From positions 62,001 to 126,000 of the forward strand of contig JAMSLZ010000016.1 in NCBI GenBank assembly GCA_026027325.1: a stretch of 64,000 bases of DNA. The letters run 5' to 3'. The position numbers were made by a program, and so were the translations under genes. Numbering within the stretch: the stretch's first letter is position 1; the number at the start of each line of letters is the position of its first letter. Shown here piece by piece: positions 7,629 to 42,874 of the stretch. The notes beneath the pieces were generated by a model, which did not search any database, was not told the DNA's origin, and worked only from the letters and a program-made list of their open reading frames with translations. The stretch is from Actinomucor elegans. Its lineage: Eukaryota > Mucoromycota > Mucoromycetes > Mucorales > Mucoraceae.

Positions 7629-7849
7629 GAAGAACATTTAGTATTACAGAAATATGTTCAAAATAGTACAATATATAAAAAAATTAGGAAATAATAGATT
7701 TTTTTGAATACAAATAATAATATAAATAAATTTTATTCTAAAATAGAACAAGTAACCAACATTTTATTTATGGATAAAAAGGCAACATTATATTTATGCC
7801 TTGATTTTTTAGGAAAGTTAAAAATATTAAGTAGTTGTAAATGTTTATC
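7629..7849 (+). repeat. Left 221-bp terminal direct repeat
   Basis: Appears identical to 9912-10132. Bounded by the imperfect inverted ends GAAGAACATTTA / TAAATGTTTATC. Very AT-rich, with no ORF of its own. Confidence 0.92.
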
Positions 7850-8004
7850 TTGTCCTATTTTTAGACTTCCATTGCGTTTAATCACATTGAGAAATCTAAA
7901 AACAACTTCCTTGGCATCTAATTCTTGGCATGATATTTTGGAAAATATAAAAGTATCTATAATATTTGAGAATTATTTTTAAAATAACATCAATATTATA
8001 TTTA

Positions 8005-8373
8005 ATGGAAAAAATCTATTATTATGCTGTGGTTTTAACTCTAAATCCTGAAAAAAAAGATGTCAAGAATAAATCATCCGAAATATTAAACAAGAAAATA
8101 CTGCAATGGGTTGGAAATATAAAAAATATTGATAAAATTTTATATAGTGGTCCTTTCTATGATGTTGGTGAAAACAATACAAATATCCATGCCAATTTAG
8201 TGATAAAAACAATTTTAGATGATAACGAAAAAGTTAGAAATGAATATTTCAAATCCTGGTGTTTAAGAAAAGGATATGTTAGTATTAAAGAAATTTATAA
8301 TTTTAAATCATGGTTAGATTATGCAAAAAGAAATCATAAGTTCTTGGAAAATATAGAAAATATTAAAAATTGA
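8005..8373 (+). CDS. Small protein of unknown function; weak Rep-like (HUH) pattern
   Basis: About 122 aa from ATG 8005, which I prefer to an upstream in-frame ATG because the conserved-looking part starts here. I do not recognise a family with confidence. Three short segments lie in the order seen in small HUH replication proteins: YYAVVLTLNP near the N-terminus (motif I-like), NIHANLVI (H-x-N, motif II-like) and WLDYAKRNHK (tyrosine followed by lysine, motif III-like). The second histidine is absent. The stop codon TGA is part of an AAAATTGA motif (8366-8373). The related element at 40436 lacks this ORF, so it is not essential to the transposon type. Confidence 0.5.
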   Translation: MEKIYYYAVVLTLNPEKKDVKNKSSEILNKKILQWVGNIKNIDKILYSGPFYDVGENNTNIHANLVIKTILDDNEKVRNEYFKSWCLRKGYVSIKEIYNFKSWLDYAKRNHKFLENIENIKN

Positions 8374-8417
8374 ATTTTCATATATAAATAAAAGTTTATT
8401 AAATATAGAAAATATTA

Positions 8418-8425
8418 AAAATTGA
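8418..8425 (+). promoter_or_regulatory. AAAATTGA promoter-like motif
   Basis: AAAATTGA followed by ATTT, ending 39 nt before the transposase ATG at 8464. The surrounding ~25 nt (TAGAAAATATTAAAAATTG..) are duplicated about 50 nt upstream. Matches the early-gene promoter motif known from mimivirus-type giant viruses. Confidence 0.55.
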
Positions 8426-8463
8426 ATTTCTCTTTATATAAAAATACATCATTTTATTTGTTT

Positions 8464-9900
8464 ATGAACACTCATATAGACTTATTAATTGAAAATGAAT
8501 ACAGAAATATTTACAATAGGTATTGGAAATTTATGAAAAATGAATATATATATAAAGTTGAATTGAAATATCATAGATCTAAAATAACGAGTATACCAAA
8601 TATTGATAGAATTAAAAAAAATATATATATTAAATTAGGAAGTATTGCTCCATTTGTATTTTTGACAGATTTATGTAACAATATAAAACTACCAGGTCCA
8701 TATATAACAGCAGATAAAGTATTGATATTATTAGAACATTTATTAAATGGAAAATCTATAAATGAAATGGAAATGTATATTCCATCTACTAGTTTTTATA
8801 AATTATATCAATCATTATATATAAATAATTATGATTTATTGGAAAAATGGATAAATAATAAATTAGAAAAATGTTTTTCTACACATACATTGAGATTACT
8901 TTGTGCTAAGAAATTTAATCCAATGATGTTAGATAATGTAACATTACTAATTGATGGTCACCATAATCGTATAACATATCAAGATATTAATCTAGATAAA
9001 AAAGAGTTATTCTCGTATAAATTAAAAAGAAATGGATTAAATACACAATTTATTATAGATATTAATAGAATATGTGTTTATATATCTGATTCCTTACCTT
9101 GTAGAAATAATACTGATGATAAAATGCTTTTAGACATAAATATCAATAAGTTTTATAATGAAATAGATTGTATATGTTTTGATGGATTATATGAAAACAC
9201 AGTAAAAGAATTTATAGAAAAATTTAGTAATATTGGATTTAATATATCCTTGAAAAATTTTTGCTATCCTATAAAAAAAGATAAAGGAGTTGAATTAACC
9301 ATAGATGAAAAAAAATTCAATGAAGAATTAGGTGGATTAAGGTCAAAAATAGAAAAATATTTTGCAGAATTAGGTAGTATTTTTAAAAGATTTAGTGGAC
9401 AAAATAAGATTAGAATAACAGATAATAAGACATATAATATACAGCTAAAATTAGCAATAGTATTACTGAACATAAAATATTTTACAGAGTTATTTGGAAT
9501 TGAAGAAAATGCCCATTACAACAAATGGCTAAATGATAATTTTGATTATTATTATAAAAATAATATTGAAATGAATAAAGAAGTAACATTAAAAACACAA
9601 TATAAAATAGAAAATATCGTTGATATAAAATCATTACAAAATCAATTTTTAAATAATTTAAATATAAATGAAGTGAATATAGATATTATGGATCAAATGG
9701 AGGAAGATATCACTAGTAATAATGATCAAAATATATATGAAATACAATATATAATTAAACACAAAAAAGTAAAGAACTTATATGAATATTTTGTAAAATG
9801 GAAAAAGTATGGTAAAGAACATAATTCATGGGTAAAAGAAAAAGATTTTACATCACATGATACTATTTTGAATTATTGGAAATCAATAGAAAATAATTAA
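8464..9900 (+). CDS. DDE transposase with C-terminal chromodomain (PIF/Harbinger-like)
   Basis: 478 aa. ATG 8464 is chosen because it aligns with the start of the homologue at 41022 (IDLLIENEY..YWKFM versus IEELLENEY..YWKFL). Likely catalytic residues: first Asp in LLIDGHHNRI (about 162), second Asp in CFDGLYEN (about 237), Glu in RSKIEKYFAELGSIFKRF (about 293), the pattern of DDE_4/IS5-like enzymes. Residues about 424-470 (YEIQYIIKHKK..YFVKWKKYGKEHNSWVKE) form a chromodomain with the expected aromatic positions, which could tether integration to modified histones. The N-terminal ~150 residues are unassigned. The ORF is complete, so this copy may be active. Confidence 0.85.
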   Translation: MNTHIDLLIENEYRNIYNRYWKFMKNEYIYKVELKYHRSKITSIPNIDRIKKNIYIKLGSIAPFVFLTDLCNNIKLPGPYITADKVLILLEHLLNGKSINEMEMYIPSTSFYKLYQSLYINNYDLLEKWINNKLEKCFSTHTLRLLCAKKFNPMMLDNVTLLIDGHHNRITYQDINLDKKELFSYKLKRNGLNTQFIIDINRICVYISDSLPCRNNTDDKMLLDININKFYNEIDCICFDGLYENTVKEFIEKFSNIGFNISLKNFCYPIKKDKGVELTIDEKKFNEELGGLRSKIEKYFAELGSIFKRFSGQNKIRITDNKTYNIQLKLAIVLLNIKYFTELFGIEENAHYNKWLNDNFDYYYKNNIEMNKEVTLKTQYKIENIVDIKSLQNQFLNNLNINEVNIDIMDQMEEDITSNNDQNIYEIQYIIKHKKVKNLYEYFVKWKKYGKEHNSWVKEKDFTSHDTILNYWKSIENN

Positions 9901-9911
9901 TCAATTAATAA

Positions 9912-10132
9912 GAAGAACATTTAGTATTACAGAAATATGTTCAAAATAGTACAATATATAAAAAAATTAGGAAATAATAGATTTTTTTGAATACAAATAA
10001 TAATATAAATAAATTTTATTCTAAAATAGAACAAGTAACCAACATTTTATTTATGGATAAAAAGGCAACATTATATTTATGCCTTGATTTTTTAGGAAAG
10101 TTAAAAATATTAAGTAGTTGTAAATGTTTATC
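9912..10132 (+). repeat. Right 221-bp terminal direct repeat
   Basis: Second copy of the terminal repeat, 11 nt after the transposase stop codon. I find no difference from 7629-7849, which implies recent insertion or homogenisation. Confidence 0.92.
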
Positions 10133-10496
10133 AGTCATCAGGAAGCCACTGAGAGCGCAGAGCATACTTGGTCACAAGAACATTATAACGGTGCTTCATC
10201 GAAGGGATACAAGTCAGATGCTTTGCAACATTGAACCAGCGAGAGCCAACGAACATACCAACAAGACGATTCTGGAGCTGATCCAGGGCAGTAAAGTCAG
10301 TAGCGGACAGTCGAGAGATGGCAAGCCCATATTCGAACTTGGGTCGAATAAAGGCTGTATACAACCGAGCACAGAGCAACAGAGAAAAGCCATTCCGGTT
10401 CACACCGACAGAGTTCAAGAGAGCCATGGTCTTGATAGCACCACCAGATCGTTTTGCCAGAATACCGGGACCAAAGAGACCTTTCTTGCTAAAGGG
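10133..10496 (-). pseudogene. LINE copy 3 ORF2, middle piece
   Basis: Encodes the post-RT segment (KTMALLNSVGVNRNGFSLLL .. RSQWLPDD), matching copy 4. Cut on the left by the chromodomain-DDE element and on the right by Merlin-1. Confidence 0.92.
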
Positions 10497-10567
10497 GGAT
10501 GTATCCCAAAGGAACTCTCAGGTCCATATTGAAACTCCTACTACCACAAATTTTATTGTTATATGAA

Positions 10568-10575
10568 AAAATTGA
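10568..10575 (+). promoter_or_regulatory. AAAATTGA promoter-like motif (Merlin-1 transposase)
   Basis: AAAATTGA followed by ATTTTTT, ending 53 nt before the transposase ATG at 10629. Same place and extended form as in Merlin-2 (51 nt). Confidence 0.5.
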
Positions 10576-10628
10576 ATTTTTTTTACAAATTAAAATTAAA
10601 AATAAAAAGGATTTAATAAAATTGCAGA

Positions 10629-11508
10629 TGTTTATAGAACCATATAAATCTTTAAAAAAATATTCGACGATGAAAAAGAAGCACTATTATATTTAATTAG
10701 TAATGATTACGTTAATAAACATATAAAGTGTAATAAATGTGAACATGAAACTAAATTAAACTTAAATAAAAAATTATATGTTTGTAGATATTATAAATGT
10801 AGGAAAGCAATATCACCATTGAAAGGAACAATTTTTAATAATTTAACTTTACCTTTAAATACTCAATTACACATATTATATCTTTTTCTTGGAAAAGCAC
10901 CTTCTTCCTTTATAGCATCAAGTTTGCAAATTAGCAAAAATACAGTGTCATCATACAATAAAATATTCAGAAAATACTTGAAAAATAAACAATTGTTAGG
11001 TAACAGAAATATTAAAATTGGAGGTAGAAATAAAATTGTAGAAATCGATGAAAGTAAAATTGCAAAAAGAAAATATAATAAGGGGCATAAGGTAGAAGGT
11101 GCTTGGGTAATTGGTGGTATCGAAAGAAGTATGCTAAAAAATAAAATAAAAAATGAAAACAAAAAAATGTTTTTATTACCCATTGAAGAAAGAAATGTTG
11201 ATAATATTGATTTAATTATAAAAAGATATGTAAAAAAAGGTACAACAATATATACGGATTTATGGAAAGGGTATAATAACTTGAAAAATATAGGATACAA
11301 ACATTTAACTGTAAATCATTCAAAGCATTTTAAAGATCCAAATACAGGTGTGCATACAAATACAATTGAAGGCACATGGAATGGCTTAAAGCAAAGTATA
11401 ATACCACGAAATAGAAATAAAAAAGATATAGTATTGTATTTAAAAGAATATCAATGGCGTAAGAAAAATAGAGAGTATAACGTATGGAAAAAGTTTTTAA
11501 AGGATTAA
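10629..11508 (+). pseudogene. Merlin-1 transposase, frameshifted
   Basis: Homologous along its length to the intact 293-aa Merlin-2 transposase. The start MFIEPYKSLKK is in one frame. One A is missing from the A-run near 10656, after which the rest is read in another frame (DDEKEALLYL, zinc ribbon CNKC..CRYYKC, then the catalytic domain). DDE residues are present: EIDESKIAKRKYNKGH, TIYTDLWKGYNNL and HTNTIEGTWNG. Only the A-run defect breaks it. A protein starting at the internal TTG 10819 would lack the DNA-binding zinc ribbon. Confidence 0.88.
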
Positions 11509-11532
11509 TTTTAATTTACATAAAAAATGCAA

Positions 11533-11540
11533 AAAATTGA
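11533..11540 (+). promoter_or_regulatory. Extra AAAATTGA motif, no clear gene
   Basis: AAAATTGA with ATTTTT after it, 25 nt past the transposase stop. Only a very short ORF follows (ATG near 11562), so a function is doubtful. Confidence 0.25.
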
Positions 11541-11748
11541 ATTTTTATATTTATTAAAAATATGATAGAAAATATATTGATAGTTATAAATGTGAAATGC
11601 ATATTTGATATTCATTATTCTTATTACAAGGACCTGACTAAGTCAGTAAACTAGCCTATTTAAGACACAATGATTATGTAATAGATCAGAGACAATTGGG
11701 TATTACATTATGAGTGGGATTAAATATATCTATTATAAAAAAATAAAA

Positions 11749-11756
11749 AAAATTGA
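11749..11756 (+). promoter_or_regulatory. AAAATTGA promoter-like motif (Merlin-1 second ORF)
   Basis: Ends 24 nt before ATG 11780. The equivalent motif in Merlin-2 ends 22 nt before its ATG. Confidence 0.5.
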
Positions 11757-11779
11757 AAAAGTAATAATATAAAAAAGAA

Positions 11780-12075
11780 ATGGATGAAATATTTAATATT
11801 ATTGTAGATGATAAATATAAATACAATATTAAACGAAGTATAATTATAAAAGATATGAAAAAATATGATTTAGCAGAATACAAAATAAAGCAAAAAGATG
11901 GGTGTTATGAAATCTACATGAAAAAAATGGTTCAAATAAAAGATTAAGAAAAGTATATGAATTTAAGACATATAATAAAGATAAAAACAAAGGTATAAAA
12001 AGAAAAACATTAGATAATAAGAATAATATGATACTTGATGAAATCGCACCCATCATGAAAAAACTTAAATTATAA
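11780..12075 (+). pseudogene. Merlin-1 accessory ORF, frameshifted
   Basis: Homologue of the 95-aa ORF in Merlin-2: KYNIKRSIIIKDMKKYDL, then AEYKIKQKDGCYEIYMKK, aligns with the other copy. An A-run near 11925 has lost one base, so the frame breaks after about 53 residues and continues in another frame. The function is unknown. Shared position, order and motif show it is a real part of this Merlin lineage. Confidence 0.65.
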
Positions 12076-12577
12076 TTTAAATATATTTTCTAAATTAAAT
12101 TTTTCAATATATATTCCATTAATTTTAACATTTATATCATGCTGATAATTATTATCTAAATTAAATTTTTATTTTCTAAGTTTTTTATTTCTTCCTTCAC
12201 AATATCTATTTCTAATAAATTTTCATTATATTCATCATATGAGAAACATTTTAAATATAATTTTATTGTTATTATATATTTTTAATTAATATTTTTATTA
12301 TCTATTACTTGATATATAAAATTAAATAGTTTTAATAGAAAAACAAAATAAAATATTGAAAATAAAGGAAAAAGTAGAATTTATGATAAAAATATGAAAA
12401 AAAGAATTATTTTAGAAATTAGTAATAGTAATTATTTAAATACTTTTTGATATATTTATTGGTCATATTAAAAGCTTAAAAAACAAAAAATGTTAAGCAT
12501 TTCCCTATGAAGTGTAAAATAAAATATTATGTATTATTAGTATAAATTAAATCTGAGACCTCGTTTGGTAATCACCC

Positions 12578-15006
12578 CTAAAGGGCATGCCAAGATAAGT
12601 GAACTCATCAACAGATGGTAGAGCAACCCCGTAAAGAGTCAATCTAAAATTTGTTGAAGTGGAAGATGTCACGGAAGGAGCGTTCAGAACAGCACACTTG
12701 GTAGGATTCCAGCGGTAACCGAGAGATTTTGAATGGTCAGCAGCCAAATCAAGCATTTCTTGCACCTCATATTTCGAGCCAAAGATTGCCACATCATCAG
12801 CAAACAAGAGGCAGTTGACAGGAACATAGCTCATGGTACCAGGTGGAGACACTTTACTTGCAGTGGAAGAAGCAGTTGAGCGCAGTAGACCAGGCAGAGA
12901 GTTAATGTACAAGGAGTACAGGTGTGGACTTAACACCGAGCCTTGGAGAACCCCAGTAGCAGGCGCAAATGCAGCCGAAGAATGGTTGTTGATCAATACT
13001 GAGATAGAAACATCGTCAAACAAGTTGACTAGCAAACCAAGAACAGCACGAGGCAGAGAAGAGTTGGCAAGAGCATCCCAAATAACGCGTCGATCCACAG
13101 TATCATATGCAGCTTTGATATCCAAGAAAGCCACCACAGGGTAGTGATGGTGGGCCAAGAAGTAGTCATGCATCAAGTCATGCAAGCAGAGGGCTTGATC
13201 CAGAGGACTACGCTGAGGACGGAAACCACCTTGTGCAAGATCCAAAGCCGGAGAGTGCTCATACAGACATGAAGATAACGATATCTCAAAGAGTTTTCGC
13301 ATAACAGAGGTCAAGGAGATGGGTCTATAGTTCGCTGGATCATCTGCATCACCTTTCTTGAAGATCGGAAACACTTGAGCCTGACGCCAGATCAACGGTG
13401 TATAACTCCATTGGAAGCATACCAGAAACAGCAGAGAGAGTACAGGTGCCAGAAGTTCAGCAACAGCTTTGAGCATTTCAGCCTTGATATGATCCGGACC
13501 AGGAGCTTTGCGATTTGGGAGCTTCTTGATGTGAAAGACCAATTCCTCCACGGAGAACAAGCCATCAGCAACCTCATCATCAACCATAAATGGTGTCTCA
13601 AGAGCAAAGTCAGAATCAAAAGAAGGTCGAGAAGCAGTAACCAACAGAGAACCATCATATACTAAAGCCAAGTGACTAGCCATTGTATCCACAGAGGCTT
13701 GGGGACCATCTGGGTGGCTATAGGTAGCAGTGGACTCTTTGCGACGCTTGAGACGAGCCATGGTTGCAGTAGCTTTGGTGAAATCCTTTTCCAGAGAAGC
13801 ACGAAAGTTTTTCCAGGATAGCCTTTTGGCAGCAGCGACAGCACGACGAAACGACTTGTGGGCTTGTAGATGGAGATGCCAGTAATAAGCCTTGTCAACA
13901 CCAAATGAATGACGCCAACGGCAATAGAGGTGATCGCGTTCTCGAGCAGCAGCTTCCAGATCAGCTGTCCAGTACTTCTTCCAATGACCAGGACGGGGAG
14001 CCTTAGACCCAATGGATTCATCCATAGCCTGATAGAGACACTCATTCAGAGATGCATTGAGTGAATCTATAGGTGGACGACTATCCGGAGGAGAACCAAC
14101 CAGACCAGCAAGAGTATCCTTCAAGGGAGCAACCAGACACCGAAACCGAGTATGGAACAGAGCCAAAGGCTCAGACTCAGCCAGCCGACTGAGGTTCCAT
14201 GTCCTACGAGGAGCCAGCACCGAAGAGTCACCTACACCAGAAGAGCCACCAGAAACAGCAATGTACTCGAACCTCAACTGTAGCAGACGATGATCCGAGC
14301 CCAGAGACAGATCAGAAGCCACAGAAAGAGAAGGAGATACCATACCAGAACCACCAATGTTGGTCAAGAACAAATCAATGATACTGCTCGCCACAGCACC
14401 ATTTCTAAAGGTACAGTATGTATCAATACCATACGCCAAGGAAGCATTCAACACTGAGAGACTGCGCTCTTCAATCCAAGGAAGCAGAGCTAGACCACGA
14501 GGATTTGTTGCAGAATCACCAGTAACATCACCAAGGCGTGCATTGAAATCACCGCAGATAATACTATCAGAGTGCAGAGGCAGTGAGTTGAGAGAAGAGA
14601 GCACCAGATCACGAGAGAGACTGGGTGGAAAGTAGACACAATGCACATTGACTTTGTCAACCTTGATCGACAGAGTATATGCATTGTAAGACGGAAGTTG
14701 AGAGACAGTAAAAGGACAGTGAGGAGAAATGAGAGCAGTGACACCACCTGAGCCACGTCCATTGGCATTAGTGACAGTTTGACCGTACAGATGATATTGA
14801 GACCAATCGGTAGGGATCAACCCAGAGGTAAGCCAAGTTTCAGTAATCAAGAGGATATCACAAGAGAGAGCATGAGAGAGTACATCGTGGATGGTAGTGA
14901 CCCGAAGACCATTGGCATTCCACAATGCAAGAGAGAAGGAGCGGACAGGATTGTTCAAAGGAGTGACAGGAGTAGCAGAAATGAAAGGAGGGACTGAAGA
15001 TGTCAT
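12578..15006 (-). pseudogene. LINE copy 3 ORF2, N-terminal piece (endonuclease and RT)
   Basis: Carries the whole APE endonuclease (GDFNARLGD, SDHR) and the RT through FADD and FTYLGMPF, where Merlin-1 cuts in. The first ~400 residues are almost identical to copy 1, but the RT is of a second type shared with copy 4 (KRRKESTATYSHPDG, FALETPFMVDDE). The start overlaps the ORF1 stop as TAATG. Broken only by the insertions. Confidence 0.93.
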
Positions 15007-15950
15007 TATTGTGACATTTCAGTATCGCTATCACCAGAGATGTCTTTACCAGAACGACGGAAAGCAAAAGCAGCCTTCTTGGGATCTTGTTCAGCAAGCC
15101 GGCGACGAGCATCCACCATGACATGGTCAAGAGTTTCATCATCCATCCATCCTTTCTCAACAAAGGAGCGGCCAACAGAGGAGACAAGCAAGGGACGTAC
15201 AAAAGACAAGGTATTGATGCATCGAGAGTGGACAATCTTGGCCATTTCATTAGCCCTAGCATCCAATGAAAGAGAGTCATAGCGAGGATCAGCTAAATGG
15301 GCAGGGTCCAAAGGATCAAAATCCTTGATAAATTCGGCTTCGGCAATAGTCATAAGCTCAGTGAACTTTTCTACATACTGAGTATGTAACAAGATACCAA
15401 TGACACCAGAGGCGGGGAAACAGACATCAATCACACGGCCAGTGTCAACACCAGCACGGCGGAGACGGGACCGGACTTCCAAACGGTCAAACTTGCGAGA
15501 GCGGCCAAGATACACGTAGGTAAAACCTTGTGGGCCTTGGGCTTCTGCGGTCTTGAATACACGGGCTGCAGCAATGCGTTTCTTCAGCGAAACAGAACCA
15601 GAATTCTTACTCTTTTGGCGAGTAGGAGCGGCGGCAACAGAAGCAAATGTGGGTTTAGTCACTTTCACTTCAGGGGAGACTTGAGAATTAACCAATGGCT
15701 GATCGACATTGGCAATGGGATTTGAGATTTTGGACATTAGCTTTGAGATCTCGGTACGTAATTGCTGGTTTTCATCAGCAAGGGCTTGTTTTTCTGACTG
15801 TAGGGTTTCAATTGTGTCTTTCAAAGCTTGAAGCTCTTGAAAAACAGTTTGGTGTTGTTGCACTTGTTGAACGACAGAAAAGACCATTTGCTGCAATTGC
15901 ATTTGGTCAATTAGGCCAGATGGCTCAGAGGCATGTTGAACATTGGACAT
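15006..15950 (-). CDS. LINE copy 3 ORF1 protein
   Basis: 314 aa, intact, differing at only a few residues from copies 1 and 4 (for example VFQELQ and DTIETLQ in the coiled coil, YVEKF for YVDRF). Coiled coil in the first ~85 residues, then the conserved RNA-binding-type domain. Since ORF2 here is broken, any protein made could serve only other copies. Confidence 0.88.
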   Translation of the reverse strand: MSNVQHASEPSGLIDQMQLQQMVFSVVQQVQQHQTVFQELQALKDTIETLQSEKQALADENQQLRTEISKLMSKISNPIANVDQPLVNSQVSPEVKVTKPTFASVAAAPTRQKSKNSGSVSLKKRIAAARVFKTAEAQGPQGFTYVYLGRSRKFDRLEVRSRLRRAGVDTGRVIDVCFPASGVIGILLHTQYVEKFTELMTIAEAEFIKDFDPLDPAHLADPRYDSLSLDARANEMAKIVHSRCINTLSFVRPLLVSSVGRSFVEKGWMDDETLDHVMVDARRRLAEQDPKKAAFAFRRSGKDISGDSDTEMSQ

Positions 15951-16137
15951 TTCGAAATGGAGAAAACTTCAAGATGTCGAAAACTTGATGGAATGTTCTG
16001 AAAAAAAAACTGCAGATAGTACTCGGCGAGGCGAAGATGGATGTGCAATTTTTGTAGATGGATGTATAGTAGTTGTTGAGATATTCGGCTTTGAAAAAGT
16101 GGATTTTTGAAAAAGTTTTCAAAAGCGAAAGAAGAGT

Positions 16138-19093: not shown

Positions 19094-20727
19094 CAGTGGG
19101 TGAAAAAACTGTTCACGTGTTTAGTGATTTCGGATAAATCATTCCAAAACTCAAGAACTACTCGACATATAATTATGTAAAAATATCCATAAGAAACTTC
19201 GATTGAATATGCAACTATGATAAAAAATATGCATTGATTACTTTATTGGTTGTTGCGTAATGTACTAAACAAATAAGGTACTACACGTGAACAATTTTTT
19301 CCCTATTAAACTAATATCTAGTTGGTCCACCTTTCGCATCCAAAACAGCTTTAATTCGAGCTGGCATACTTTCAATGTACCTCCTACATTCCTCCTCAGT
19401 AAATGTATTCCATTCTTCGTCACACCGTTTCCATAGACCATGTACACCGGTTGGCTTCGTGTCGTATGCGCTTAGTTTAAGTTTAAGGTGATGCCACAGG
19501 TGTTCAATTGGATTCATATCAGGGCTTTGAGGTGGCCAATCGTCAATCCAGTTGACATTATGTTCAGAGAACCACTTTTTTGTGGAATTAGCCGTATGTT
19601 TTGGGTCATTATCTTGTTGAAAGTAGATATCCTCCCATTTCAAACCATAGTAATCGAGGCTCTCTCGAAGTGTTGTGCCCAATATACCTTGGTAATCTTC
19701 GGCATTCATTGCTCCATCGTAAATTTGGCAAGCATATCCAGGCCCCCAGTAGGTCATGCAGCCCCACATCATAAGGCTGCCATTCCCATGCTTAACTGTA
19801 ACGTCTATATGATGGGGTTTTAATGGGTTACCGGGCCTAGACCAGTAGTACTTGCATCCATCGGAACCCCAAACATTTATCTTCGTTTCATCTGACCAAA
19901 CTACACGTTTCCAACCGTCTACAGTCCAATGCTGATACTTTTTGGCCCAGTTGTATCGCTTTAGGCGATTTCTATGGCTGATGAATGGCTTCTTTTTCTT
20001 TATTTCTGCATGGGAATCCCATTGATCTCAAAATATTTGTGGCTGTTTTGTATGACAAATGGTAACCAAGTGACAAAAACTCTTTGTAGGCATCTTGGGC
20101 CGTCAAAAGCCTACCAAATAGTATCTTCCGTCTAACTAAAGCCTTGCTTGTATCGTCCACAATAGCGGGTCTACCACCAGTAGCACGTTGACCATCTGGG
20201 AACCATCTCTTGTTGTACTTAGATACAACTCCAGCAGAGACGCCAAACCTTTTTGCAATCACTGAGTAGGGTGTTCCTTTGATAAGAAGAGCTTTCATGT
20301 CCATTTGGGTGTCGATAGATAGAGAATGAGTCATATCTGATGTATAATGAAGAGTATTAGTTGTAAGGTCTGAAAAATAACATATAACCGAACGAATATT
20401 GGTTCTTTTATACTTTACAGTACCTTACGTCATTGCTTGGTATATTCGGATCATTTCGGATCAACAATAATGGATTTACAGCACCATTGTTATGTTATAT
20501 TACGTTTGGCGCCGGTGAGGAAAAAACTGTTCACGTGTATGCCCTATATTCAATCAGCTGTGTAACATTCTGTATTACCCTGACATATCAATGAATATAT
20601 TGGCGTGATAGCACTTTACTTAAGCATTCTAATGATAGTTTTTCATAGCCGTATATCCATTTGGGGTCGAAAGCCCTATAAAAATATGTAAAAATACAAA
20701 ACACGTGAACAGTTTTTTCACCCACTG
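19094..20727 (-). mobile_element. Tc1/mariner transposon with doubled inverted ends
   Basis: A 1634-bp insertion with TA duplication (19092-19093 and 20728-20729). Terminal inverted repeats start CAGTGGGTGAAAAAACTGTT. Each end holds a second, inward copy of the core AAAAACTGTTCACGTGT in opposite orientation (about 19284-19303 and 20519-20540), so each ~200-bp end could fold on itself. The target is the LINE copy 4 ORF2 gene. Confidence 0.93.
19311..20334 (-). pseudogene. Mariner transposase, one frameshift
   Basis: The N-terminal 120 residues (20334 down to ~19990) hold the helix-turn-helix DNA-binding part (ALLIKGTPYSVIAKRFGV..). A single frameshift in the AAGAAAAAGAAG run near 19990 separates it from the catalytic part, read without further stops. 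That part has first Asp in VVWSDETKINVWG, second in YFQQDNDPKHTANS and Glu in PPQSPDMNPIEHLW, a DD34E arrangement typical of Tc1. Joined length would be about 340 aa, normal for the family. As it stands the copy cannot make a full enzyme. Confidence 0.9.
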
Positions 20728-21501
20728 TACACCAGAAGAGCCACCAGAAACAGCAATGTACTCGAACCCCAACTGAAGCAAACGATGATCAGAGCCCAAA
20801 GAGAGATCAGAAGCAACAGAAAGAGAAGGAGACACCATACCAGAACCTCCAATGTTGGTCAAGAACAAGTCAATGATACTGCTCGCCACAGCACCATTTC
20901 TGAAGGTACAGTATGTATCAATACCATACGCCAAGGAAGCATTCAACACTGACAGATTGCGTTCTTCAATCCAAGGAAGCAGAGCTAGACCACGAGGATT
21001 TGTTGCAGAATTACCAGTAACATCACCAAGGCGTGCATTGAAGTCACCGCAGATAATAGTATCAGTGTGAAGAGGCAGTGAATTCAGAGAAGAGAGCACC
21101 AGATCACGAGAGAGACTGGGTGGAAAGTAGACACAATGCACATTGACTTTGTCAACCTTGATCGACAGAGTATATGCATTGTAAGACGGAAGTTGAGAGA
21201 CAGTAAAAGGACAGTGAGGAGAAATAAGAGCAGTGACACCACCTGAGCCACGTCCATTGGCATTAGTGACAGTTTGACCGTACAGATGATATTGAGACCA
21301 ATCGGTAGGGATCAACCCAGAGGTAAGCCAAGTTTCAGTAATCAAGAGGATATCACAAGAGAGAGCATGAGAGAGTACATCGTGGATGGTAGTGACCCGA
21401 AGACCATTGGCATTCCACAATGCAAGAGAGAAGGAGCGGACAGGATTGTTCAAAGGAGTGACAGGAGTAGCAGAAATGAAAGGAGGGACTGAAGATGTCA
21501 T
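20728..21501 (-). pseudogene. LINE copy 4 ORF2, N-terminal endonuclease piece
   Basis: The first ~258 residues of ORF2 with WNANG, TETW, GDFNARLGD and SDHR. The frame joins that ending at 19093 if the mariner and one TA are removed. The start overlaps the ORF1 stop as TAATG. Confidence 0.92.
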
Positions 21502-22445
21502 TATTGTGACATTTCAGTATCGCTATCACCAGAGATGTCTTTACCAGAGCGACGGAAAGCAAAAGCAGCCTTCTTGGGATCTTGTTCAGCAAGCCGGCGA
21601 CGAGCATCCACCATGACATGGTCAAGAGTTTCATCATCCATCCATCCTTTCTCAACAAACGAGCGGCCAACAGAGGAGACGAGCAAGGGACGTACAAAGG
21701 ACAATGTATTGATGCATCGAGAGTGAACGATTTTGGCCATTTCATTAGCCCTAGCATCCAGTGAAAGAGAGTCATAGCGTGGATCAGCTAAATGGGCAGG
21801 GTCCAATGGATCAAAATCCTTGATAAATTCGGCTTCGGCAATAGTCATAAGCTCAGTGAACCTGTCTACATACTGAGTATGTAACAAGATACCAATGACA
21901 CCAGAGGCGGGGAAATAGACATCAATCACACGGCCAGTGTCAACACCAGCACGACGGAGACGGGACCGGACTTCCAAACGGTCAAACTTGCGAGAGCGAC
22001 CAAGATACACGTAGGTAAAACCTTGTGGGCCCTGGGCTTCTGCGGTCTTGAACACACGGGCTGCAGCAATGCGTTTCTTCAGCGAAACAGAACCAGAATT
22101 CTTACTCTTTTGGCGAGTAGGAGCAGCAGCAACAGAAGCAAATGTGGGTTTAGTCACTTTCACTTCAGGGGAGACTTGAGAATTAACCAATGGCTGATCA
22201 ACATTGGCAATGGGATTTGAGATTTTGGACATTAGCTTTGAGATCTCGGTACGTAATTGCTGGTTTTCATCAGCAAGGGCTTGTTTTTCTGACTGTAAGG
22301 TTTGAATCGTGTCTTTCAAAGCTTGAAGCTCTTGGAAAGCAGTTTGGTGTTGTTGCACTTGTTGAACGACAGAAAAGACCATTTGCTGTAATTGCATTTG
22401 GTCAATTAGGCCAGATGGCTCAGAGGCATGTTGAACATTGGACAT
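21501..22445 (-). CDS. LINE copy 4 ORF1 protein
   Basis: 314 aa and intact. In the coiled coil it is closer to copy 1 (AFQELQALKDTIQTLQ) than to copy 3. One clear replacement is VIDVYFPASG, where the other copies have Cys. Domain layout as in the other ORF1 copies. Confidence 0.88.
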   Translation of the reverse strand: MSNVQHASEPSGLIDQMQLQQMVFSVVQQVQQHQTAFQELQALKDTIQTLQSEKQALADENQQLRTEISKLMSKISNPIANVDQPLVNSQVSPEVKVTKPTFASVAAAPTRQKSKNSGSVSLKKRIAAARVFKTAEAQGPQGFTYVYLGRSRKFDRLEVRSRLRRAGVDTGRVIDVYFPASGVIGILLHTQYVDRFTELMTIAEAEFIKDFDPLDPAHLADPRYDSLSLDARANEMAKIVHSRCINTLSFVRPLLVSSVGRSFVEKGWMDDETLDHVMVDARRRLAEQDPKKAAFAFRRSGKDISGDSDTEMSQ

Positions 22446-22634
22446 TTCGAAATGGAGAAAAATTCAAGATGTCGAAAACTTGATGAAATGTTCTGAAAAA
22501 AAAACTGCAGATAGTACTCGGCGAGGCGAAGATGGATGTGCAATTTTTATAGATGGATGTATAGTAGTTGTTGAGATATTCGGCTTTGAAAAAGTGGATT
22601 TTTGAAAAAAGTTTTCAAAAGCGAAAGAAGAGTG

Positions 22635-23381: not shown

Positions 23382-23887
23382 TGTTGTAAACGCTCATAAT
23401 TATATTAATAAGAGAATACTGTACAGATAGAAAATCGTATAGATATCCTTATATATAGCTGCAGAAGTGTATAAAGCATTATTACCAAGAACCAGAATGT
23501 AAATGACTGTATTTGATTATGTTAAAATATCTTTATTTATATATCACTCTGAGCAAGTAGACGCTAATTGATAAATACTATCTCTCACACCAAATATTAC
23601 ATTCAATACTATTACCTTTGGATATATTGATCCCGACACTCCTCGCCGCTAATCTTGGTCCGCTCATTTGGTTATTATCCCTGGTCTTCTTTATACGCAG
23701 TCCAACCTTGTTCCTGGCAAATCGTAATATGAATTTAGAATCAAGTACCGACCGAGAAAAAGTATATAAGAGATGCGTTTTATCACCTTTTGACCAGTTA
23801 ATCAATTCTTGATCTCTAATAAAAAACTATCCACAGTTTTAAAAGTATTTCTATCTTCCAAAATCTTTATCTACCACCTTTACAACA
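23382..23887 (+). mobile_element. Solo LTR (family unknown) in LINE copy 5
   Basis: 506 bp starting TGTTGTAA and ending TTACAACA, flanked by the 5-bp duplication GAACC (23377-23381 and 23888-23892). TG..CA ends and a 5-bp duplication mark a solo LTR left by recombination. No internal sequence remains, so Ty1/copia or Ty3 cannot be chosen. Strand is arbitrary. Confidence 0.88.
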
Positions 23888-27826: not shown

Positions 27827-28014
27827 TTCGAAATGGAGAAAAATTCAAGATGTCGAAAACTTGATGGAATGTTCTGAAAAAAAAACTGCAGATAGTACTT
27901 GGCGAGGCGAAGATGGATGTACAATTTTTATAGATGGATGTATTGTAGTTGTTGAGATATTCGGCTTTGAAAAAGTGGATTTTTGAAAAAAGTTTTCAAA
28001 AGCGAAAGAAGAGT

Positions 28015-37069: not shown

Positions 37070-37113
37070 TTTTTTATCTTCTCTCTCGGTGATTACAACT
37101 ATTCTATTCTACT

Positions 37114-37378: not shown

Positions 37379-37448
37379 GGATGTATCCCAAAAGAACTCT
37401 CAGGTTTATTATTAAAACTCCGAAATCATTTTAATTTTTGTTTTATAC

Positions 37449-37456
37449 AAAATTGA
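37449..37456 (+). promoter_or_regulatory. AAAATTGA promoter-like motif (Merlin-2 transposase)
   Basis: AAAATTGA followed by ATTTTG, ending 51 nt before ATG 37507. Sequence around it is partly conserved with Merlin-1, sequence further away less so. Confidence 0.55.
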
Positions 37457-37506
37457 ATTTTGTTTTATATTTAAAATATAACTTAAAAAGGTTTTTATAG
37501 AACTAT

Positions 37507-38388
37507 ATGTTTATAGAACCATACAAATCTTTGAAAAAAATATTTGATGATGAGAAGGAAGCACTATTGTATTTAATTGAAAACAACTATGTTAACCATT
37601 ATGAAAAGTGTTTAAAATGTAACCATGATATTAAATTAAATATAAATAAAAAATTATATGTTTGCAGATTTTATAAATGTAGAAAAGCTATATCACCTTT
37701 AAAAGGTACAATATTTAATAAATTAACATTATCATTAAATATACAATTACATATACTATATTATTTTCTTGGAAAAGTGCCATGTTCATTTACTGCATCA
37801 ACATTAGGAATATCAAAGAATACTGTGTCATCTTATAATAAATTATTTAGAAAACATTTAAAAAATAAGCAATTATTAAGTAATAGAAATATTAAAATTG
37901 GGGGTAGAAATAAAATTGTAGAAGTAGATGAAAGTAAAATAGCTAAAAGAAAATATAATAGAGGTCATAGAGTAGAAGGTGCATGGATTATTGGAGGTGT
38001 AGAAAGAAGTATGTTAAAAAATAAAATAAAAAACGAAAATAAAAAAACTTTTTTTGTCCCTATTAAAGAAAGAAATATTGATAATATAGATTTAATTATT
38101 AAAAAATATGTAAAAAAAGGAACCACAATATATACAGATTTATGGAAAGGATACAATAATTTAAAGAATATAGGATATAAACATATGACTGTAAATCATT
38201 CCAAAAATTTTAAAGATCCAATAACAGGTGTACATACTAATACTATTGAAGGTACTTGGAATGGATTAAAACAGAGTATAATACCCAGACATAGAAACAA
38301 AAAAGATATATTATTGTTTTTAAAAGAATATCAATGGAGGAAAAAAAATAGGGAATATAATTTATGGAAAAAGTTTTTGACAGATTAA
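37507..38388 (+). CDS. Merlin transposase (ISXO2/IS1595-like DDE)
   Basis: 293 aa, complete. N-terminal zinc ribbon with Cys35, Cys38, Cys53 and Cys58 (CLKC..CRFYKC), then a helical linker. The DDE domain has first Asp in VEVDESKIAKRKYNRGHRVEG (about 140), second in TIYTDLWKGYNNL (about 210) and Glu in HTNTIEGTWNGLK (about 248). VNHSKNFKDP before the Glu is a family hallmark. Strong A/T codon bias (mostly AAA, AAT, ATA, TTA) is unlike the surrounding retrotransposon. The ORF and ends are intact, so the copy may be active. It probably acts with, or instead of, the broken Merlin-1 enzyme. Confidence 0.94.
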   Translation: MFIEPYKSLKKIFDDEKEALLYLIENNYVNHYEKCLKCNHDIKLNINKKLYVCRFYKCRKAISPLKGTIFNKLTLSLNIQLHILYYFLGKVPCSFTASTLGISKNTVSSYNKLFRKHLKNKQLLSNRNIKIGGRNKIVEVDESKIAKRKYNRGHRVEGAWIIGGVERSMLKNKIKNENKKTFFVPIKERNIDNIDLIIKKYVKKGTTIYTDLWKGYNNLKNIGYKHMTVNHSKNFKDPITGVHTNTIEGTWNGLKQSIIPRHRNKKDILLFLKEYQWRKKNREYNLWKKFLTD

Positions 38389-38899
38389 AGTTTATATATA
38401 ACTTGATTAAATACAATTTGATTTTTTTATAAAAATGTAATATGACACGAAATATATTAAACTTAAAATGCATTTTGAAAGTTTATTTCAATTATTAATA
38501 TGATCTGATCATGTTATTAAACTGATTTATTAAATATTATATAGTTATTTTATTATAAACCTAAAAAATTTGTATAGAAGTATATTTGAATGATTATCTT
38601 TAATAAAATAATTCATTTCATATTGTTCTAATAATTATTCTTATATTACATACATTGATTATAAATTTAATGAATCTTACATCGTTGAATATACTTTTCA
38701 AGAAAAGATTTATTAATCAATAATATATATAACTTTTATTTTAATTATTTTCAATAATTATATTATAGATTCCTTTTTTTAATATACATATTATTATAAT
38801 ATAGATTTATTTTCTAGTAAAATTAACTTTTCTAATATGTTCTCGGCGTTACTTAATAGTATGAATTGGATTAGATATAATGTCAACATAAAAAATTTA

Positions 38900-38907
38900 A
38901 AAATTGA
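38900..38907 (+). promoter_or_regulatory. AAAATTGA promoter-like motif (Merlin-2 accessory ORF)
   Basis: Ends 22 nt before ATG 38929; same arrangement as 11749-11756 in Merlin-1. Confidence 0.55.
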
Positions 38908-38928
38908 AAACAATTATATAGAAAAATA

Positions 38929-39216
38929 ATGAACATATTAGATTTAATAGCCGATGATAACTTTAAATATAATATTAAAAGAAGTATGATTGTAAAAAAA
39001 ATAAAAAAATATGATTTAAGTGAATTTAAAATTAAACAAAAAGATGGGTGTTTTGAAATTTATATTAAAAAAAATGGATCAAATAAAAAAATAAAAAAAG
39101 TTTATGAATTTAAAACATATAACAAAAGTAAAAAAAGCAAAAGAGTATATGAAAACAATGAGGAAGATATATTTAATAATGTTAATAACAATATTGTACC
39201 TGTTCTTAAAAAATAA
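38929..39216 (+). CDS. Merlin-2 accessory protein, unknown function
   Basis: 95 aa, very lysine-rich, with repeated KKIKK/KSKKSKR stretches that could bind nucleic acid or act as a nuclear signal. I recognise no domain. A (frameshifted) homologue occupies the same place in Merlin-1, and both follow an AAAATTGA motif. That makes it a genuine second gene of this Merlin lineage, whereas most Merlin elements carry only the transposase. Confidence 0.7.
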   Translation: MNILDLIADDNFKYNIKRSMIVKKIKKYDLSEFKIKQKDGCFEIYIKKNGSNKKIKKVYEFKTYNKSKKSKRVYENNEEDIFNNVNNNIVPVLKK

Positions 39217-39307
39217 AATTATAAATTTATAAAATAAAATAATCTTAAAACAATATATTCTATTATCACGTGATGTGAGAGCTCGTTTGATAATCATCCA
39301 ACAAAAC

Positions 39308-40435
39308 TAAACTTGCTGACGCGTCTGGTACTATCTGGGGCCACAGATATTAGCTCGATCAAGGATGTGCAGCATGAAATTGACTGCTTGAGTGGTCTTA
39401 TTGAAACATATAACCGCTCTCTGGGTGATCAATCACCTATGTTGAATGAAGCCAAGGTTCCTACTACTGCAGTCATTGATGAAAAGAAGGTCGGTCTTCC
39501 ATTAAAGAGATATGATATCCCCAAATTCCAACTACGTGGACACTCGGTGCTACCCTTTCCTAAAGAAGACGCCTATGATAATGTTGAACATTTCCTTTGT
39601 CAGTTTGAGAAGGTTCTTCATTCTGCAATTATTGATATTGAGGTAAACTGGCGTTTTTATGTTCCTTTATCTTTTGCCTACGATCATGAAAGTTGGTGGC
39701 GTGAGGAGCTTTTACCGTTAAACAAAACGTGGTCAGATGCTCGCGAAGCAATTAAACTCAAATTTGGTAATACTCAGAACATGGTGAACGCACGGAAAAA
39801 GGTGATGGCGATGAGAATGACATCTTCGGAAACAATCAACGACTTTGCAACCAGATACGTGAAAGCAATCAAGGAAGCACCTAATTACACTGTGAATGAC
39901 CAAATTCTGGCTGATAATTTCTTATATGGCGGTATACCTCGGGAATTGCATGCAAATCTAACTACGGTGATGGCTACAATGAAGAGCAGTATCAACGCTG
40001 CATGGACAGTTGAAGAAATCAGAAGGGTCGCTGTCAACGTATATGGTGATCAAATCCTTGGGAAGATGTATCCTGATGTAGTATTTGAAGGTGATGAACA
40101 TCGCAAGGCCCCTCGTCTTCTTTCTGTCTCCACGGCCATCAAACGTAAGGCATCTGGTGACCACTTCTGCCCTCGACATGGTGGAAAGATGGCAAACCAC
40201 AACGAACAAGACTGCTATAGCGTTGGGAAATCTGAAGCTGGTCCTTCTAACGGAGGAAGAGTCAATACATTTTTGGGCGCCCGGAATGTTCCGCACAAGA
40301 ATTCTCTTTGTAACTATTGCAATGCCAAGTGGTTCCATGGTCATCAATGTGAAGAATACCGACGTGCCAAAGGTATTAAAACCATGGGCAAGAAATTTAA
40401 TATTTTAAGCATTCGTCAAAGAAACGAAGCCAAAA
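39308..40435 (+). pseudogene. Element D Gag, main piece with zinc-binding C-terminus
   Basis: Aligns with element E Gag (DIPKFQLRGHSV, NVEHFLCQFEKVL, TWSDAREAIKLKFG). Near the C-terminus FCPRHGGKMANHNEQDC and CNYCNAKWFHGHQCEE form zinc-binding motifs, the second a CCHC knuckle. It runs into the chromodomain-DDE element at 40436; after that the reading frame continues from 42875. Confidence 0.88.
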
Positions 40436-40837
40436 GAGCAACGTTAAAAATAAAAAAAAATAAAAATTAGTTTTTAAATTAAATAGTGTTTTTTGTAATT
40501 ATATTTTTTTTTGTTTAACACTTTTTTATTGTAATTTTTGAAAGTTTGGTAATTAACGTAAAAATAAGAAATTGCAATAATTATGCAAAACTTATAAAGA
40601 TTAAACTTTTATATTACTTTTCAATACAATTAAACTTTTTTTTTTCATAATATTTCACACCAGATCGAAACCCTGTTGTGCGACAATTTTTTTCTTTTAA
40701 AATTGATTAAAAAGCACGTCGTAAGTTTTTTAGCAACTTACAACTTGATAAATAAAGAAAACTATATAATTTTAATTTAATAATATAAAAATAATTATAA
40801 TATATATATTAATTATTAATGGTATGTAATGTAGCTC
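40436..40837 (+). repeat. Left 402-bp terminal direct repeat
   Basis: Starts GAGCAACG and ends GTAGCTC (imperfect inverted ends). Holds a perfect 7-bp hairpin GTAAGTT-TTTTAGC-AACTTAC near its right end (about 40720-40740) and an internal AAAATTGA at 40699-40706. Confidence 0.92.
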
Positions 40838-40982
40838 TTATATAAAAATTGCTCTTTGTTTTTGATTCATAGTATCAATTTTTATTTTATTTTTTGCCAA
40901 ATGTTTGAATGTTTAATATTAAAATAATTATAATTATAATCATTTCTGTAACATTAATTCAAACTCAATTACTTTTTTCTAA

Positions 40983-40990
40983 AAAATTGA
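40983..40990 (+). promoter_or_regulatory. AAAATTGA promoter-like motif (chromodomain transposase)
   Basis: AAAATTGA followed by ATTATT, ending 32 nt before ATG 41022. Confidence 0.55.
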
Positions 40991-41021
40991 ATTATTATAT
41001 AAATAAAAATAAGAACATCTT

Positions 41022-42473
41022 ATGACAATTGAAATAGAGGAACTATTAGAAAATGAATATGAAGAGATTAAAACAAATTATTGGAAATTTTTAGATAATA
41101 CATATAAATCTAATATTGAAAAACAATATCATAGAAGTAAAATAGGAAATTTTATTAACATTCAAAATATAAAAAAAGAATTATATGAACTATTAGGTGC
41201 AATTCCTATATTTGTATTTTTAACAGAAATTTGTAGTAAAATTAAAATGCCATCACCAGTATATAATGTAGAAAAAGGAATTTTGATTTTAAAATTATTA
41301 GTAGATGGTTGTTCCATTAATGATATGAAAATTTATGATGAGAATGATTCTTTTTATAGAATTTATAAATCTGTTTTTATTGATAATATAGATTTTTTAG
41401 AAAATTGGGTTAATAATACGATGTTTTATTGTTTTAGCAACAGCATTACTAGATTATTATATAGTAAATTATACAATCCTAAAAATTTTGAACATTGTAC
41501 ATTACTTTTAGATGGAAGACATAATAGAATAGTAATTGAAGATATTGATTTAAATAAAAAAGATTTATATTCTTATAAATTAAAGAAAAATGCATTAAAC
41601 ACCCAATTTATTATAGATTCAGCAGGATATATCATCTATGTTTCAGAATCATTACCATGTAAATTTAATAATGACGATAATATGTTTATTAATAATATAA
41701 ATTTAATGAAATTTTTTAAACTGACAGATTGTTTATGCTATGATGGATTATATGAAAATGTATTAGATGAAATTTTAAAAAAATATAATAATGTAGGATT
41801 ACATATTACAGAAAATAACTTTTGTTTTCCAATAAAAAAAGAAAAAAATATTGATTTAGATGTTGATGAATTAAATTTTAATAAACAATTAGGATCATAT
41901 AGAAGTACCATTGAAACTTTTTTTGCAAAATTTTCAAATATATTCAAAAGATTTAGCTACAAAGCCAATGCAAGAATTACAAAAGAAAAAACATATAACA
42001 TTCAGATTAAATTAGCATTAGTTTTATTTAATATCAAAAACTTTGTAGAAAAAAATAATATAGAAGAAAAATCTTATTATAAACTATGGATGGAAAAAGA
42101 TTTTGATTTTTTTGATACTATTAAGGATTTTAATATCGAAACTAAATCAATAAAGGCGGTATATAAAAAAGAAAATATAATGAATATGAAAAGTTTACAG
42201 GATGATCTTCTAAATAAACTTTTATCTGATAATAATTTTAAAATCAGCTTAACTAAAAATAAAATGCAAATTGATAATGATGATAATAATACTAGTACTG
42301 ATAAAAATGTATATGAGATACAATATATAATACAACATAGAAAAATAAATAATGAATATGAATATGAGGTAAAATGGAGAAATTATAAAAAACAAGTAAA
42401 CAGTTGGATTAAAGAAAGTGACTTTCAAACAAAAGATATTCTAAAGAATTATTGGGATTCTATCAATGTCTAA
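41022..42473 (+). CDS. DDE transposase with C-terminal chromodomain (PIF/Harbinger-like)
   Basis: 483 aa, complete, homologous along its length to the 478-aa protein at 8464. Likely catalytic residues: LLLDGRHNRI (about 163), CYDGLYEN (about 240), RSTIETFFAKFSNIFKRF (about 295). Between them SYKLKKNALNTQFIID and a YVSESLPCKFNNDDNM segment resemble DDE_4/IS5-type enzymes. Residues about 430-475 (YEIQYIIQHRK..YEVKWRNYKKQVNSWIKE) are a chromodomain like that of retrotransposon integrases. Strong A/T codon bias. No upstream Rep-like ORF in this copy. Confidence 0.87.
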   Translation: MTIEIEELLENEYEEIKTNYWKFLDNTYKSNIEKQYHRSKIGNFINIQNIKKELYELLGAIPIFVFLTEICSKIKMPSPVYNVEKGILILKLLVDGCSINDMKIYDENDSFYRIYKSVFIDNIDFLENWVNNTMFYCFSNSITRLLYSKLYNPKNFEHCTLLLDGRHNRIVIEDIDLNKKDLYSYKLKKNALNTQFIIDSAGYIIYVSESLPCKFNNDDNMFINNINLMKFFKLTDCLCYDGLYENVLDEILKKYNNVGLHITENNFCFPIKKEKNIDLDVDELNFNKQLGSYRSTIETFFAKFSNIFKRFSYKANARITKEKTYNIQIKLALVLFNIKNFVEKNNIEEKSYYKLWMEKDFDFFDTIKDFNIETKSIKAVYKKENIMNMKSLQDDLLNKLLSDNNFKISLTKNKMQIDNDDNNTSTDKNVYEIQYIIQHRKINNEYEYEVKWRNYKKQVNSWIKESDFQTKDILKNYWDSINV

Positions 42474-42874
42474 GAGCAACGTTAAAAATAAAAAAAAATA
42501 AAAATTAGTTTTTAAATTAAATAGTGTTTTTTGTAATTATATTTTTTTTTGTTTAACACTTTTTTATTGTAATTTTTGAAAGTTTGGTAATTAACGTAAA
42601 AATAAGAAATTGCAATAATTATGCAAAACTTATAAAGATTAAACTTTTATATTACTTTTCAATACAATTAAACTTTTTTTTTCATAATATTTCACACCAG
42701 ATCGAAACCCTGTTGTGCGACAATTTTTTTCTTTTAAAATTGATTAAAAAGCACGTCGTAAGTTTTTTAGCAACTTACAACTTGATAAATAAAGAAAACT
42801 ATATAATTTTAATTTAATAATATAAAAATAATTATAATATATATATTAATTATTAATGGTATGTAATGTAGCTC
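42474..42874 (+). repeat. Right 402-bp-type terminal direct repeat
   Basis: 401 bp; differs from the left copy in T-run length only, as far as I can see by eye. Confidence 0.92.

Follow-up and report, generated by a model that had tools for sequence, protein, structure and literature searches.

The 64,000-nucleotide stretch of Actinomucor elegans DNA analysed here, bases 62001-126000 of one of the 27 contigs of a 36.5-Mb assembly and hereafter called the window, contains four AT-rich DNA transposons: two Merlin elements (M1 and M2) and two elements (F1 and F2) that encode a chromodomain transposase and resemble PIF/Harbinger. F2 and M2 sit within a long interspersed nuclear element (LINE), and M1 and F1 within an element that looks by eye like Ty3. 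Several genes of the four transposons are preceded by the octamer AAAATTGA, which appears to be one half of a two-part arrangement, AAAANTGA followed after 16 nucleotides (nt) by AAA. We assign a probability of about 0.9 to the reading, drawn from sequence conservation, that this arrangement is a conserved and functional bipartite promoter of virus type, present on two unrelated transposon groups. The features are listed in Table 1.

A first-pass annotation of the window had reported six copies of AAAATTGA ahead of transposon genes. All six were recovered on the + strand, at 8418, 10568, 11749, 37449, 38900 and 40983, and four carry the extension ATT that had been described. The distances to the start codons were each 1 nt too large as first given: from the end of the motif to the ATG they are 38, 52, 23, 50, 21 and 31 nt, respectively. 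Two gene-proximal sites had been overlooked, one at 8366, which is a second F2 copy of AAAATTGA, 90 nt before the ATG at 8464, and one at 11533, directly after the Merlin transposase frame of M2 and ahead of a frame of ~30 codons. The window as a whole contains 21 copies of AAAATTGA against 12.58 expected, a number reached by 1 of 100 shuffles. As this total is only mildly enriched, the count alone is weak, and it is the positional evidence that carries the case; 13 of the 21 sites lie away from element genes, roughly the number that chance would supply.

That positional evidence comes from the whole genome. Searches with the transposases returned at least 134 Merlin matches, and at least 89 and at least 90 chromodomain matches. 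By identity these formed 5 Merlin subfamilies (M labels), 9 AT-rich chromodomain subfamilies (F labels) and F8, which has a host-like composition; F11, a degenerate chromodomain subfamily, was added as the tenth AT-rich one. One representative per subfamily gave a set of 22 genes, made up of 5 Merlin transposases, 5 accessory genes, 10 chromodomain transposases and 2 small open reading frames (ORFs). Left out of it were F8 (a control), M4b (motif deleted), repeat copies, the 11533 site (no representative gene) and two further frames, F12 and F13, which were found through the motif. Of the 22 AT-rich genes, 17 have AAAATTGA within the 60 nt that precede the ATG and 20 have the relaxed form AAAANTGA there, N being T in 17 of these, C in 2 and A in 1. 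Dinucleotide shuffles gave a mean of 0.97 genes with AAAATTGA and a maximum of 5 in 1000, so that the motif is clearly enriched in these upstream windows, and its reverse complement was found in none of the 22. An earlier estimate that chance would place the octamer in about 2% of 100-nt windows proved too low, since the shuffles give ~4% per 60 nt.

When the 20 promoters were aligned on the motif, A was present at +25 and +26 in all 20 and at +24 in 18. The triplet AAA begins at +24 from the motif start in 18 of the 20, and at +25 in F5 and F10; with the best offset taken in each trial, 5000 letter shuffles yielded at most 11 and 5000 rotations at most 10. After removal of similar 40-mers the triplet was still at +24 in 13 of 15. 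Its spacing is fixed with respect to the motif and not to the ATG; start codons fall 18-52 nt past the motif (median 27) and 2-36 nt beyond the first A of AAA. Both the promoter and its internal spacing are kept across subfamilies whose proteins are down to ~36% identical. Within the window, 8 of the 21 AAAATTGA sites have AAA at +24, namely the six named sites together with 8366 and 11533, and 0 of the remaining 13 have it; representatives of the six named sites were in the set from which the rule was discovered, so the independent part of this comparison is the 0/13.

Elsewhere in the genome the 14-mer AAAAATTGAATTTT occurs 222 times, compared with 4 for its reversed control, mostly because the elements are multicopy. 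From the first 100 matches listed, 14 places outside the transposase matches were read: 5 are F11, 2 are F4 and 1 is an M2 fragment, and the other 6 have no recognisable transposase behind them. The bipartite pattern with a 16-nt spacer occurs 658 times and with a 12-nt spacer 308 times (reversed controls 130 and 145), again mostly as copies. Two of the 16-nt places, picked by eye for AT-rich context outside the known families among the 100 matches listed, precede new AT-rich chromodomain transposase frames that were absent from the initial chromodomain matches: F12, which resembles F11 by eye, and F13.

These observations bear on two simple alternatives. Chance occurrence in AT-rich DNA has in its favour the window total of 21 sites against 12.58 expected, yet the positional shuffles, the spacing tests and the 0/13 window sites reject it, and we regard its probability as negligible. 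If AAAATTGA were a transposase-binding or subterminal site and no promoter, the position of the first M1 copy, ~70 bp from the left end, would be understandable; we consider that account very improbable, as the motif is also found, sense-oriented and with fixed AAA spacing, ahead of accessory genes inside the elements, and is common to two unrelated transposase superfamilies.

Table 1. Transposons, their genes and the putative bipartite promoter sites in the window
Feature	Coordinates	Strand	Remarks
Chromodomain DDE_Tnp_4 element F2	7629..10132	+	2504 bp; GC 0.201; target duplication AGT; inside LINE
F2u, small upstream ORF of F2	8005..8373	+	122 aa
Bipartite site AAAATTGA-N16-AAA, upstream copy in F2	8366..8392	+	sequence pattern
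Putative bipartite promoter, F2 transposase	8418..8444	+	sequence pattern
F2 chromodomain transposase	8464..9900	+	478 aa; PF13359 and PF00385
Merlin element M2	10497..12577	+	in LINE; 8-bp target duplication CTAAAGGG on both sides
Putative bipartite promoter, M2 Merlin transposase	10568..10594	+	start codon 10628
M2 Merlin transposase frame	10648..11508	+	PF12762; ATG 10628 out of register here
Bipartite site after M2 transposase frame	11533..11559	+	where M3, M4 and M5 have a second gene
Putative bipartite promoter, M2 accessory gene	11749..11775	+	start codon 11780
Merlin element M1	37379..39299	+	1921 bp; GC 0.191; 8-bp target duplication AACAAAAC
Putative bipartite promoter, M1 transposase	37449..37475	+	
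M1 Merlin transposase	37507..38388	+	293 aa; PF12762
Putative bipartite promoter, M1 accessory gene	38900..38926	+	
M1 accessory ORF	38929..39216	+	95 aa in this copy
Chromodomain element F1	40436..42874	+	2439 bp; GC 0.188
Putative bipartite promoter, F1 transposase	40983..41009	+	
F1 chromodomain transposase	41022..42473	+	483 aa; PF13359 and PF00385

The controls concern the main rival explanation, in which the arrangement is a core promoter of the nuclear RNA polymerase II (Pol II), favoured by descent or convergence, and its viral likeness is a coincidence or a shared ancient rule. We hold this to be possible, if short of probable. In the nucleus the element families are mobile and young (12 genome copies of the M1 transposase, that in the window included, have 100% protein identity, and F2 has 25 copies at top score), which implies that something in the fungus reads them or lately read them. 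Also, the assembly contains three Rpb2-type genes and no fourth, although a cytoplasmic element could escape assembly. On the other hand, the motif is missing from host starts, in samples that are small: 0 of 13 small-GTPase genes with an identifiable ATG and 0 of 7 host ORFs. The 13 come from 20 loci taken out of 126 matches; the remaining 7 loci have no clear ATG, and the motif appears at none of the 20. It was present in 3 of 320 overlapping AT-rich host 60-mers, and of five 10-kb host stretches four had no copy of AAAATTGA and one had 4. Many host upstream regions appear by eye to be pyrimidine-rich. Moreover, F8, a sister subfamily of the same family with host-like GC content, shows nothing motif-like in the 120 nt upstream of its gene (three copies of one sequence). 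Finally, the ATG lies 9 nt or less from the first A of AAA in 10 of 20 genes and inside the A-run in F6 and F11, so that transcripts of the last two would be nearly leaderless. An ATG so near to or inside the A-run is at odds with a TATA-like role of either half, and we rejected the A-run as a TATA box on this ground.

The viral likeness itself resides in sequence and in spacing. The upstream core element of poxvirus early promoters is AAAANTGAAAA (PMC5294985). A 15-nt element in which any base at position 5 is followed by TGA has been described, with the start site a median of 12 nt further on in vaccinia; in the virus-like elements (VLEs) of yeast 11 nt separate the 15-nt element from the start site, and in Mimiviridae the distance seems to be different (PMC6211774). 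VLEs have, in addition, a TAAAAT initiator and transcripts with non-templated 5' poly(A) leaders (PMC6831550). If the 15-nt element is counted from the first A of AAAANTGA, the start is predicted at about +25 to +27, and the conserved A-run of the transposon promoters occupies +24 to +26. The promoters described here share with poxvirus early promoters the AAAANTGA core with its free position 5 and an A-run near the published start-site spacing. They differ from them in standing on nuclear transposons, in having mostly ATT instead of AAA after the core, and in coming from a fungal assembly in which no virus-type polymerase was found. Yeast VLEs (pGKL, with an upstream conserved sequence and initiator) are similar in placing the motif ~20-40 nt before the ATG, in their extreme AT content and in an A-run initiator ~11 nt past the extended element; the VLE core, ATNTGA, has T at a position where the transposon promoters have A, these having been selected for matching AAAANTGA.

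The octamer had at first been taken for the early promoter motif of mimivirus-type giant viruses. That it is a conserved and sense-oriented element holds good, but AAAANTGA with AAA at +24 fits the poxvirus and VLE pattern better than one confined to mimiviruses. There is nevertheless a likeness in the octamer, which is the same, and in its presence on small mobile elements dependent on a giant virus: AAAATTGA promoters occur on transpovirons and a 2-kb pacmanvirus episome (PMC11788076) and before one gene of a megavirus transpoviron (PMC11464507), and have been reported on virophages too. The transpovirons and the pacmanvirus episome are the nearest published parallel that we found for small elements borrowing such promoters. 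Mimiviridae transcription units have a hairpin at the mRNA 3' end (PMC4402537), and our elements differ from mimivirus-type systems in that we found no consistent hairpin terminators, no giant-virus genes and no viral relatives of the transposases. A mimivirus-type giant virus as the specific source of the promoter seems to us unlikely.

Whether a virus-type RNA polymerase reads the promoter, or once read it, is a question on which, from these sequence comparisons, we would give even odds. Under this interpretation the element genes would start from AAAANTGA, 16 nt and AAA, with AAAANTGA serving as the upstream core element and AAA as the initiator of transcription of the type used by poxviruses, other nucleocytoplasmic large DNA viruses (NCLDVs) and VLEs. 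A cytoplasmic virus-type RNA polymerase could then read the genes, giving mRNAs that are perhaps short or 5' poly(A)-led. The elements might, further, reside for a part of their life cycle, now or in the past, on an AT-rich replicon in the cytoplasm (a giant virus, another nucleocytoplasmic DNA virus or a linear plasmid) and return to the chromosomes by transposition. In its most specific form, which we put forward as a doubtful proposal, Mucorales would harbour an undiscovered cytoplasmic DNA virus or linear plasmid that is AT-rich, persists in the fungus and has a poxvirus-like RNA polymerase; a transposon guild of two superfamilies would reside there, be transcribed from AAAANTGA-N16-AAA into mRNAs that probably carry non-templated 5' poly(A) leaders, and recolonise the nuclear genome in bursts.

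A number of observations weigh against a viral connection or against a uniform promoter. The two genes without AAAANTGA are F2u and F7u, which were retained among the 22 and scored as misses, and the second M4 copy, M4b, has lost the motif through deletion. Identical nuclear copies indicate recent mobility in the fungus; together with the absence of any DNA virus of Mucorales from the literature searched, in which subscription journals mostly and bioRxiv were outside scope, this suggests that a nuclear polymerase may suffice. The same facts favour either recognition by Pol II or a resident cytoplasmic element that has gone unseen. Five protein scans of IMG/VR on short exact peptide patterns found no relative of either transposase. 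VLE-type genes were sought in the genome as the polymerase subunit and DNA_pol_B_2; the lack of a fourth Rpb2-type gene counts here as well, and D5_N primase had no match in the assembly, its control being positive in 3 of 14 genomes. Searches for NCLDV capsid (PF04451) and DNA_pol_B_2 (PF03175) gave 0 matches and their controls were equally empty, so that they are uninformative. Within the elements we found no viral genes (helicase/primase or capsid), only the transposase and small ORFs without a Pfam match at threshold, and in the 150 nt after stop codons there was no consistent signal for mimivirus-type 3' hairpins (best-hairpin z-scores -2.2 to 1.9 in 20 genes, F8 included and F9-F11 left out). 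Of 180 listed homologs of both transposases (for Merlin, the best 120 of 527), 6 carry organism names, and all are Mucorales: Mucor hiemalis, Thamnidium elegans, Mucor flavus and Pilobolus umbonatus (three). The proposal that the transposons originated in a giant virus or had passed through one, with which the first-pass annotation had ended, thus goes unsupported by the IMG/VR scans, by the polymerase and D5 primase searches and by the named homologs.

A scan of IMG/VR for AAAAATTGAATTTT returned at least 120 stretches, of which 85 loci were read, and one locus, L066, had the octamer at most 100 nt upstream of at least 3 genes and of 30% of its genes. L066 has capsid-like and primase-like genes and is thus virus-like; it was matched to itself (L178, the same record) and to one relative, L179. 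In L066/L178 and L179, AAAANTGA lies 30-67 nt ahead of several ORFs. AAA follows at +24 in 1 of 10 AAAANTGA sites of these virus-like contigs, which counts against the virus-type reading, and these contigs carry no weight in it. On the supporting side, NCLDV-type genes, a DNA polymerase among them, have been reported in Rhizophagus, a member of Mucoromycota (PMC9894930).

Reading by a virus-type polymerase, if true, would give genes a concrete path between the nuclei of eukaryotes and the DNA viruses of the cytoplasm. It would also indicate a DNA virus or plasmid, so far unseen, in a fungal order for which the literature searched gave none. If Pol II reads the motif instead, it would still be a sharply defined core promoter of early-diverging fungi. 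The two-part form of the motif makes the virus-type reading directly testable. We found no description of virus-type promoters on chromosomal transposons in the literature searched.

The extreme AT composition that had been noted earlier is upheld, and it goes with the motif, F8 having neither. GC content at third codon positions (GC3) is 0.08-0.19 in 19 AT-rich genes versus 0.43 in F8, with 0.13 for the F2 transposase (measured on copy L011) and 0.12 for that of F1 (copy L010). The FYMINK content of the proteins is 41-53% in the AT-rich groups and 32-33% in F8 and its two relatives; for most of the other Merlin sequences it is 24-39%. Trees were labelled as AT-rich or not by amino-acid composition. 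In the chromodomain tree 56 AT-rich sequences are split from 3 GC-normal ones with support of 100/100; long branches near the join leave the root unsure, and 56 of 59 is no census, since the profiles were built mostly of AT-rich sequences. The Merlin tree contains an AT-rich clade of 20 sequences (support 100/98), and the label needs three changes there because two borderline sequences fall outside the clade. From these deep AT-rich groupings the composition appears to be old in both lineages.

If the elements had jumped from an AT-rich eukaryotic donor, for instance a parasite that is amoebal or resembles a microsporidian, their promoter and composition would be a relic of it. The microsporidian genomes that contain Merlin are AT-rich. 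Merlin elements are abundant in some microsporidia (PMC8101967), which speaks for such a donor. We judge it quite improbable, as the AT-rich clades are deep and diverse with 6 named members that are all Mucorales, and as a relic motif would not have stayed conserved from one subfamily to the next, as this one has.

The elements themselves are recently active cut-and-paste transposons, of Merlin and of PIF/Harbinger-like type with a chromodomain. Merlin elements have inverted ends and make an 8- to 9-bp target duplication. Both M1 and M2 show the DDE_Tnp_IS1595 domain and 8-bp target duplications, the duplication being present at 6 of 8 M1 copies, with no identifiable right end in the other 2. 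In these features and in their terminal inverted repeats they are like known Merlin elements, from which they are distinguished by ~20% GC, at least one accessory gene and virus-type promoters. Merlin (IS1595-like) transposons are known from Mucoromycota, and in the main text of the paper that describes them the words virus, promoter, AT-rich and GC content are absent (PMC8101967). The accessory ORF of M1 had no Pfam match at threshold; together with its M2 relative it was matched by 29 protein clusters. The predicted structure of the M1 transposase has a mean pLDDT (predicted local distance difference test) of 87.1 and was not used for any conclusion. By eye, A-run lengths in the window copy of M2 seem to differ from those of its relatives (10628-11508 and 11780-12075), which would put the transposase start out of register and probably break the accessory frame. 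Also by eye, AAACTC lies ~16-30 nt upstream of AAAATTGA in 5 of 5 Merlin transposase promoters and in chromodomain F1 and F4.

PIF/Harbinger elements have a 3-bp target duplication and a second gene with a Myb/SANT domain. Both chromodomain transposases of the window contain DDE_Tnp_4, with the chromodomain placed C-terminal to it, and the elements share with PIF/Harbinger this domain, the 3-bp target duplication and short inverted ends (GAG...CTC in F1, F3, F4 and F5; GA...TC in F2 and F6). The duplications were read directly at four insertions (AGT, ACT, CTG, ACT) and, after the aligned edge was shifted by one to nine bases, at four others (AGA, CTT, ATA, AAA); no TWA preference was seen at these 8 target sites. 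Unlike PIF/Harbinger, the elements have the C-terminal chromodomain and, in 6 of the 7 AT-rich subfamilies examined (F1-F7), long terminal direct repeats of 221-404 bp: 221 bp in F2 (7629-7849 and 9912-10132), ~404 bp in F1 (40434-40837 and 42472-42874 as aligned) and 221-297 bp in F3-F6. Nor did we identify a Myb-like second gene, F2u and F7u, the only second ORFs examined, having no significant Pfam match. F2u also lacks AAAANTGA over the 60 nt ahead of its start codon, and the stop codon with which it ends is supplied by the TGA in the 8366 AAAATTGA (8366-8373), so that the gene end overlaps the next promoter. The direct repeats of F1-F6 are 98.7-100% alike within elements, in the manner of long terminal repeats, a strange feature for a transposon of the cut-and-paste kind; each direct repeat of F3 and F5 itself starts and ends with the inverted terminus. 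In F7 and two F8 copies long inverted repeats, not direct ones, flank the transposase.

Two other repeated sequences, less AT-rich, contain AAAATTGA-N16-AAA, one on contig C1 at 71374, 110914 and 3088817 and the other on C1 at 140446, 2560890, 2625152 and 3075313. Grem-LINE1 elements mark the centromeres of Mucor, and copies of a two-ORF LINE cluster in the window (186-4555, 12547-15968, 20629-22463 and 23880-27844), that at 186-4555 having endonuclease and reverse transcriptase by Pfam and the other three being recognised by eye.

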